NCBI GenBank assembly: GCA_015956445.1
Contig: WIUZ02000004.1
Coordinates: 1,364,001 to 1,428,000 of the forward strand
DNA from: Thelephora terrestris
Taxonomy: Eukaryota > Basidiomycota > Agaricomycetes > Thelephorales > Thelephoraceae
Reading direction: 5' to 3'
DNA: 64,000 nt
This document shows, in pieces, positions 61,133-63,459 of this stretch (the stretch's first letter is position 1; the number at the start of each line of letters is the position of its first letter). The translations under genes were made by a program, and so were the position numbers. The notes under the pieces are model-generated. The model ran no database searches and had not been told where the DNA came from. It saw only the letters and a program-made list of their open reading frames with translations.

Positions 61133-63459
61133 CTAAAGGAGGTATCGGAATTTTCTTATGAGCCGTCTCTCCTGATCAGCGGTTGCGTTGACCAAACTGA
61201 AACAATGTCAATGAAAAGTGCGCACAAATAGGAGAGACGCCACACACTTAGCGGACTTTGTGATTGTTTTTTCATCAGCCCCGAATACCTCCACCTCGCC
61301 ATTTTCTAGTTTTTTATTCAGATAGACGAGGTATTGGCGATAAGCTGAGCGTCCGTCAGTAAGTCTTATCAATGTGAGTGGCAAGGACTGACCTAAACCG
61401 ATCGCAAGGGAGAGGGAGAGCAAACAGAGCTCAGTGGTGAAGCTTCGCCAATATCTCGGCGCCCACTTGGACGGCCACAGGTACGAGGCGGGGATTTGTC
61501 CAATGTTGGCAAATCCGTTGACTATCGCAATGGCGGCCGCACGTTTGACCGGAGGACGGGGAAGACTCGTGCTAACCCATCCGAGTAGGAGAATTCCACC
61601 TGGAAACACATCGAATATTATGTATAACCTCTAACGTGAAGCGAATAGAAGTTACCGCTGTAGCCCATGCACATTCCAAACAGGGAGATGTATTTTCCGG
61701 CGGTAGTCTTGGCTATGAAGAGGTTGGAAAATTGCATCGCAATAGGGGTATGTCCACCCACCTGTAAGGGCGACCACATAACCGAGGAGAGCGAAAGCAT
61801 AAGCAAGGGCGATATGGAAATACTTTTCTCCAGTGCGGTCCGAATGCCAAGAGTTCACAAGGGCAAAAACGGTGGCGAATGCCCAAGGGGGGAAAGTAAG
61901 CAACAATGTGACCGTGGTATTGAATCCAAGGGTTTTGGTGATGCTCGGGAAGTACTGGCTGAACGACAGGCCCATAAGATAGGTAAAATACATCAAACTA
62001 GTGGGGAACACGTTCAGAATTCGAGAAGAGGAGAGGGTTCACTGACTTACGCCAATGCCCAAACTTTGATGTCGGTGACCGCAAGTTTCAGTCCATGGAG
62101 AACTCCTGAACCGGATCTCTCGGCTTCGTCAGGGTTGTCAACGAGACCAACGTCTTTCACAAGTCGACCCTGAGCAATGCGAAGCTCCCTTTCCGAGAGC
62201 CATCTCGTACTGTGCGGGACTAGATCGGCTCCGCTCCAAAATGTTGTAAGGATGTATGGCTCACCTAGAAGGGTAATCCGCAAGGATGAACGGAACAAGG
62301 AGCCCGAACGCGACGGTTATGGAACCTTCGATGATGAAAAGCTATAAACGATGAGCTGGCGCCTGCCAAGGTAGTGGGAGGGAACGAACCCATCGCCATC
62401 CCCGGATGCCCCTAGCCCCCTCCATTCCACTCAGTACACCAGCGGCAATTAACCCGCCCAAACCTTGAGCCATCATGTTGCCTACATTCAATCTGCCGAG
62501 ACGTGAGCCCAAGAAACAAGGCACGGCGTATTTGAGCTCGTACACCGCAATTCTGAAGCCGACTTCCTTCCTTGTATACCATCGGGAGAGGTAATAAATA
62601 GCACCGGGATAGAACGCGGCCTCTGTGATAACCGTCAAGCCATGCTGATGGAAGAGAGATATACTTGCCTACAAAGCCCAGGAAGAAGCGACAGACGACA
62701 ATCTGAGAGAAGTTGTTACAAAGCTGTTGTATGGATTAAATAAGTACCCGAACCGCTGGGGAAAGGTGGGGGGGTCTTACCGAAGTCAAAGCCGAGATCA
62801 AGCCCCATGTGACGGTCACGAAAGCGAGGTACAGCCGAGGGGTCGGAACAGTATTCATAACCAAATTCGAGGGCACTTGCATCTATGTGCAGGGTCAGCG
62901 CCAGTAGCGAACTCAGGGTTTCTATAAGCCTACGAAAATATAACCGGCAAAGAGGACGGACAACGAAGTGGCGTATTGTGTGTCATTGAGGTTCAAGTCC
63001 TGCTGGAGGCCCGCGAGGCGAGCATTGGCCAAATTGCTGCGCTGTGACGGTCTGTTAGTGGTACCTAATTCGGGGAGACGGAATGAATGGTTGGAGACTG
63101 ACGTCCTGTATATGAAATGGTTAATGGGCGGATCGGAACACGGTAGTGCCAGGAAATGCTTACGAGGAAGTTTAGGATGAACAACTGTGTTATATCAAGA
63201 ACTGCGTTAATCACTCCCCCTCAAGCCAAAAAGACAGGGGGCGAACGTACGATCATCAACACGGGCTGATGAACGCGACTCGGTACTCAATATTCGGTAA
63301 TCACGCGTTGGGAAAGCGGTCAGAGGGACTCACGAGACATCGGGTGTCGATTTTATTAACGAGGCGGCGTTCCTCGTGCTCGTCCCAGTCTCCGAGGGTG
63401 GCGGTTTCCTCAGGGGCTAAAGGGGAGGCGTTGGAATTGGCTGACTTGGAAGAAGTCAT
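61133..63459 (-). CDS. DAL5-family MFS anion transporter
   Basis: Sixteen exons give 502 residues: 63459-63334, 63265-63251, 63184-63164, 63105-63103, 63041-62934, 62882-62781, 62723-62669, 62622-62544, 62492-62390, 62341-62265, 62209-62051, 61997-61762, 61712-61656, 61599-61393, 61344-61248, 61196-61133. Family marks: RCLPVLMILFILNFLDRSNL, NARLAGLQQDLNLNDTQYAT, VCRFFLGFVEAAFYPGAIYY, LSRWYTRKEVGFR, LGGLIAAGVLSGMEG, IEGSITVAFG and an end FRYLL. About 12 helices. The ACS family (yeast Dal5, Tna1, Vht1) imports allantoate, nicotinate, biotin or sugar-acid-like anions with protons. Three consecutive exons of 15, 21 and 3 nt code PVLMI, LFILNFL and a single D of the DRSN motif. One intron (62668-62623) is GC-AG. 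Confidence 0.92.

Follow-up and report, generated by a model that had tools for sequence, protein, structure and literature searches.

Exons of 3 bp have been described in the Drosophila homothorax (hth) and troponin T genes and in the NCAM gene of mouse and rat, according to the account in PMC7392893. In fungi, 3-bp microexons have been attributed to the NACHT-ANK (NLR) genes of Tuber melanosporum by Iotti et al. 2012, as cited in PMC10197012, PMC4986451 and PMC3689799. These Tuber reports sit uneasily with a statement in a 2024 paper on Trichoderma that functional microexons were previously undescribed in filamentous fungi (PMC11121469). Other fungal genes come close to this size: among the P450 genes of Phanerochaete chrysosporium, which include microexons, the shortest exon is given as 6 bp (PMC1184071), and among the bglA genes of basidiomycetous yeasts as 5 bp, two of these genes also having GC-AG introns (PMC9142197). 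Exons of a single nucleotide are described as verified in plants, in APC11 of Arabidopsis and in VPS55 genes (PMC4674806, PMC8831610), and intron definition combined with resplicing has been suggested for that of APC11 (PMC4674806). In the relevant portions of three further papers (PMC4014442, PMC3990503, PMC8022950) microexons appear only as a setting of the read aligner.

The window, a 64,000-nucleotide stretch of the Thelephora terrestris genome (contig WIUZ02000004.1, positions 1,364,001 to 1,428,000), includes a complete and intact gene that runs on the minus strand from nucleotide 63459 to nucleotide 61133 and consists of 16 exons and 15 introns, with 502 codons and no internal stop. The introns are 46-68 nt long and are GT-AG throughout except for one GC-AG. 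The gene model was built by visual inspection and then by script, and a 501-base query from the gene region found a single match in the 40.6-Mb genome. A 500-amino acid version of the protein matched PF07690 (MFS_1) with an E-value of 1.2e-35 and 123.5 bits, well over the curated cut-off of 33.4. The top NCBIfam match of the final protein was TIGR00893 (D-galactonate transporter subfamily) at 191.5 bits; this is so far under the cut-off of 395 that the protein can be considered a relative of this subfamily and not a member. No match was obtained at E 0.01 when the single protein, in its 500-amino acid version, was compared with PDB using phmmer, and a search of viral contigs for relatives confirmed none. 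The sequence identifies it as an intact gene with many introns for a fungal MFS transporter of the DgoT/SLC17-like type (anion:cation symporters), with H+-coupled anion transport as its predicted activity.

The 5' portion of the gene is a chain of very small exons. Exon 1 (63334..63459, 126 nt, codons 1-42) starts with the ATG at 63459, and its donor is the one picked in the spliced alignments described below. It is followed by intron 1 (63266..63333, 68 nt, GTGAGT...CATCAG), exon 2 (63251..63265, 15 nt, CCCGTGTTGATGATC, coding for P V L M I, codons 43-47), intron 2 (63185..63250, 66 nt, GTACGT...ACACAG), exon 3 (63164..63184, 21 nt, TTGTTCATCCTAAACTTCCTC, coding for L F I L N F L, codons 48-54), intron 3 (63106..63163, 58 nt), exon 4 (63103..63105, 3 nt), intron 4 (63042..63102, 61 nt) and exon 5 (62934..63041, 108 nt), which starts with R S N L A N A R. 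Exon 4 is the codon GAC, Asp55, and lies between CATATACAG and GTCAGT, as an earlier sequence-only reading had described. The coordinates which that reading gave for the minus-strand exons of 15, 21 and 3 nt are exact, while the flanking introns, for which it gave 58-69 nt, measure 68, 66, 58 and 61 nt.

The remainder of the gene consists of exon 6 (62781..62882, 102 nt), exon 7 (62669..62723, 55 nt), exon 8 (62544..62622, 79 nt), exon 9 (62390..62492, 103 nt), exon 10 (62265..62341, 77 nt), exon 11 (62051..62209, 159 nt), exon 12 (61762..61997, 236 nt), exon 13 (61656..61712, 57 nt), exon 14 (61393..61599, 207 nt), exon 15 (61248..61344, 97 nt) and exon 16 (61133..61196, 64 nt), which ends in FRYLL followed by a TAG stop. 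Two boundaries were revised: exon 7 now starts at 62723, the first choice having left out seven residues that the paralogs possess; for exon 11 an acceptor at 62203 (-0.7 bits) was rejected in favor of CCGCACAG, at 62209, which scores 5.1 bits.

The residue encoded by exon 4 has a counterpart of known importance. A profile made from the protein and four paralogs matched Escherichia coli DgoT (PDB 6e9n) with an E-value of 3.9e-17, and in the alignment, in which residue numbers were counted from the printed start, Asp55-Arg56 correspond to DgoT Asp46-Arg47 and Glu144 corresponds to Glu133. The TM1 Asp-Arg pair and the TM4 Glu of the DgoT/SLC17-like proton/substrate site are thus found as D55, R56 and E144. 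The earlier proposal that exon 4 provides an Asp of central importance for function is borne out: Asp55 lies in TM1 and aligns with DgoT Asp46, a residue needed for proton-coupled transport whose replacement in the D46N mutant is reported to abolish or greatly reduce active transport (PMC6532931, PMC10149257). DgoT is a bacterial, SLC17-like H+/anion symporter, and for the fungal protein such a role is putative. Bacterial and archaeal relatives were fetched with peptide patterns that exclude the DRSN motif, its D included; among the best 80 of at least 592 confirmed prokaryotic relatives, Asp55, Asn58 and Glu144 were conserved in all 80 and Arg56 in 76, while position 57 (S) varied. The DRSN motif, which had been called invariant, is therefore so at D and N, nearly so at R, and not at S.

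A separate observation concerns the GC-AG intron, intron 7 (62623..62668, 46 nt, GCAAGT...TCACAG). It splits the codon for Glu144 in phase 1, the last base of exon 7 being the first base of that codon, and as a consequence both proton-relay residues of the protein are located at exon borders; this is probably a coincidence.

To the 3-nt stretch an AG is immediately adjacent on one side and a GT on the other, and each of the two introns has a donor, a branch-point-like motif and an acceptor of its own: GTAAGC...TTAAC...ATACAG in intron 3 and GTCAGT...CTAAC...TCACAG in intron 4. Donor and acceptor weights were trained on 109 paralog introns, and the branch-point matrix was set by hand. Left out of this training set were 7 of the 116 paralog introns, all longer than 90 nt (93-141 nt), which are the least reliable because they lie at or beside alignment ends; the other 109 are 42-87 nt long. 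An unsupervised training on pairs of ORFs was dropped after it drifted, probably to shadow ORFs, with AAG as 288 of its 662 acceptors, and homology-guided introns were used instead. Measured against the 109 paralog introns, intron 3 ranks at the 74th percentile in total splice score and intron 4 at the 60th. Of the individual elements the donor of intron 4, GTCAGT, is the weakest, at the 23rd percentile; the identical hexamer starts intron 14 of the same gene, at 61392. Introns 3 and 4 are not visible duplicates of each other, as their alignment score of 31 compares with 29.7 +/- 5.1 for shuffled sequences and was equaled in 207 of 500 shuffles.

These characteristics could in principle be fortuitous. 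Exon 4 would then be unused, introns 3 and 4 would be a single 122-nt intron, and the product would be a protein without the Asp, or else the gene would be decaying. The ends of the 122-nt stretch are themselves a good donor and a good acceptor (7.0 and 5.3 bits), the PF07690 score is barely affected by the loss of D, going from 123.5 to 119.8 bits, and a single paralog of the 11, L048, carries Asn at the D position. However, the internal acceptor, donor and branch-point-like motifs would all have to be coincidental. The 122-nt stretch was put through 20,000 dinucleotide shuffles that left its ends in place. With both introns required to be at least 42 nt long, an AG-GAY-GT exon occurred in 55 of them and the observed score was reached in none; when any codon was allowed, such an exon occurred in 1,158 shuffles and the observed score was reached in 1. 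In real DNA from the window and 19 loci of the same genome, 945 GT...AG pairs 115-130 nt apart had comparable sites, and 108 internal AG-NNN-GT were found in them; GAY was the codon in 7 of these, and exon 4 itself was the sole case in which both introns reached the observed score. The 3-nt exon is more than chance. The conservation of D in the 80 best prokaryotic relatives and in 10 of the 11 paralogs, together with the intact remainder of the gene, also argues against an unused exon or a decaying gene, and we consider this explanation very unlikely.

Eight further MFS loci (L055-L062) provided sequence for the intron training and the real-DNA control only and are outside the paralog models. 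One of them, L055 (G000 C48:7000-11000, on a contig of 18.7 kb), includes a 3.9-kb stretch with an MFS_1 match that is 99.9% identical to a stretch of C12 in L056 (G000 C12:995500-999500); the two may stem from a recent duplication, or the contig may be an allelic or redundant one.

Other ways of joining exon 3 to exon 5 were enumerated, with GT/GC...AG introns of at least 20 nt. None of the 12 in-frame, stop-free splicings with one intron restored DRSN, and among the 20 with two introns only 2 did; when both introns had to be at least 40 nt long 4 splicings were left, and DRSN resulted from the choice of exon 4 only. Retention of intron 3, of intron 4, or of both leads to truncated frames of 93, 70 and 86 codons, respectively. 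The joined reading LFILNFL-D-RSNLANARL aligns with the paralogs with no gap at D.

The paralogs were modelled at 11 places of the same genome with a home-made splice-aware protein-to-DNA aligner. When the 11 paralog proteins were aligned back to the window, all of them picked introns 63163-63106 and 63102-63042 and placed GAC between the two. With exon 4 forbidden, 10 of the 11 queries gave the 122-nt intron and a one-residue gap at D, which cost about 13 score units, and the L048 query gave a different, poorly matching alignment that cost 7.8; the aligner applies a mild penalty to introns that depart strongly from 55 nt in length, long ones included. The window protein, with the Asp that 10 of the 11 share, served as the guide for the paralog models. 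This guidance cannot have created the residue in L044, L045 and L051-L054, since in these six it lies inside an exon with no intron nearby.

No 3-nt exon occurs at the site of exon 4 in any of the 11 paralogs, and the family therefore lends no comparative support to exon 4 as an exon. It does include other small exons in the same portion of the protein. L046, L047 and L048 have in common a 10-nt exon in TM1, from codon 47 phase 1 to codon 50 phase 2, with splice sites that are good in most cases (G000 C1 ~2.48 Mb, C59 ~298 kb). In L049 a 9-nt exon, GAAACATCG (1154-1162 of the reverse complement of L049, which lies on G000 C6 within 323500-326500), is found inside the DRGNI motif, with introns of 49 and 51 nt on either side. 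The closest paralog by score, L050, carries the Asp on a 20-nt exon in TM1 and has an intron one codon upstream of the position of intron 3. A search of the genome for the pattern RSN..NA found 5 places, one of which is the window gene; the other 4 (L009-L012, on the matching strand) have no transporter-like TM1.

The aligner can also invent 3-nt exons. It placed one in a divergent stretch of L049 that is taken to be an artefact, as its donors are weak (0.5 and 2.3 bits); the alignment that includes it is 5.5 score units above the version without it.

As plain counts, codons 31-60 of the window gene and the 11 paralogs together have 12 distinct intron positions, compared with 2-10 in each other 30-codon bin.

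Taken as a whole, the splice signals and the reading frame make it very probable that exon 4 is a genuine 3-nt exon for Asp55, flanked by two ordinary short introns and, as we infer, normally always included. Introns 3 and 4, of 58 and 61 nt, would each be recognised whole by intron definition, a mode in which the size of the exon hardly matters. Because spliceosomes cannot occupy both introns at once across 3 nt, the introns would be removed one after the other, in either order. Whichever order is taken, the sites of the intron that stays second would remain whole, with GAC providing positions -3 to -1 of the second donor. Most likely the arrangement originated by intron gain, or by intron sliding, beside an existing intron, with no regulatory role; the tiny TM1 exons of the family, together with the lack of a 3-nt exon in the 11 paralogs, would fit such a gain or sliding event in the gene's own lineage.

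The same 122-nt stretch could instead be resolved by recursive splicing or as a twin intron (stwintron), since it contains two introns with little between them whose removal would have to be sequential. In a ratchet point the AG of an acceptor directly abuts the GT of a donor, defining an exon of zero nucleotides; in a stwintron an inner intron interrupts a splice element of an outer intron. Here the AG and the GT are not juxtaposed but separated by GAC, and because the AG does not directly precede the GT this is not ratchet-point splicing. Recursive splicing in its strict sense, a question that the sequence-only reading had raised, thus has no AG-GT ratchet point on which to operate. The outer donor GTAAGC and the outer acceptor TCACAG are likewise uninterrupted, and the product of either process would lack the Asp. 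Either process is extremely improbable at this locus.

Skipping bears on the one-codon exon differently. Omission of exon 4 keeps the frame and deletes only Asp55, as predicted earlier, which leaves a protein of 501 amino acids with ...NFLRSNLANA... at the junction. If exon 4 were a cassette and its omission were controlled, the result could be a carrier without Asp55, uncoupled from protons, and splicing would act as a switch of activity. The loss of a single residue, the requirement of the aligned DgoT Asp46 for coupled transport (PMC6532931, PMC10149257) and the existence of alternatively spliced 3-bp exons, as described for Drosophila hth and the Tuber NLR genes (PMC7392893, PMC10197012), are consistent with this proposal. 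So is the donor of intron 4, which is under average, and since it is weaker than most some skipping is conceivable. On the other hand, the intron removed in skipping would be 122 nt long, while the 15 introns of this gene do not exceed 68 nt and 109 of the 116 paralog introns do not exceed 87 nt; the sites and branch-point-like motifs of both introns are within the normal range, and no skipping-specific element was seen in the sequence of the window gene. No sign of the regulated skipping that had been suggested was found in the sequence. Removal of the residue would also shift TM1 by one position, and for this reason the product is likelier to be a dead carrier than one with a second mode of action. 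A controlled switch is a most unlikely interpretation; under it, the same gene would give rise to coupled and uncoupled (or dominant-negative) carriers, by a one-residue splicing switch in a fungus.

A one-codon exon of this kind has a practical side as well. Annotation tools that bar 3-nt exons would be expected to join 63164 to 63041 and produce a protein without the proton-coupling Asp. If RNA bears it out, exon 4 would offer a clean natural test of how small an exon can be for the spliceosome of fungi: an error takes away just one important residue, and its effect could show up as lost transport.

With exons of 3 bp, of 1 nt and of 5-6 nt already on record, exon 4 adds an example and not a mechanism: it is a well-supported further case of the 3-nt exons known in animals and in Tuber, at an unusually meaningful residue. 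With the exons of homothorax, troponin T and NCAM it shares the size of 3 nt and the preservation of the frame. All of these belong to animal genes; those of homothorax and NCAM are described as alternative, and that of homothorax is the start of a longer exon. The APC11 and VPS55 exons resemble exon 4 in being ultra-short and required for a normal protein, and the sequential, intron-definition splicing proposed for APC11 is of the same kind as that proposed here; they differ in that they are of 1 nt, from plants, conserved across land plants and verified with RNA, and in some VPS55 genes the exon is reported to be alternative. The P450 genes of P. chrysosporium and the yeast bglA genes are, like the gene in the window, fungal genes with many short introns and tiny exons, but the exons described there do not go down to one codon. 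In T. melanosporum, codon-sized exons are likewise found in fungal genes. Many of the Tuber exons are described as alternatively spliced and as diversifying a sensor domain, whereas in the T. terrestris gene just one codon is concerned, at a position that is conserved and important for catalysis, and its inclusion is apparently constitutive.
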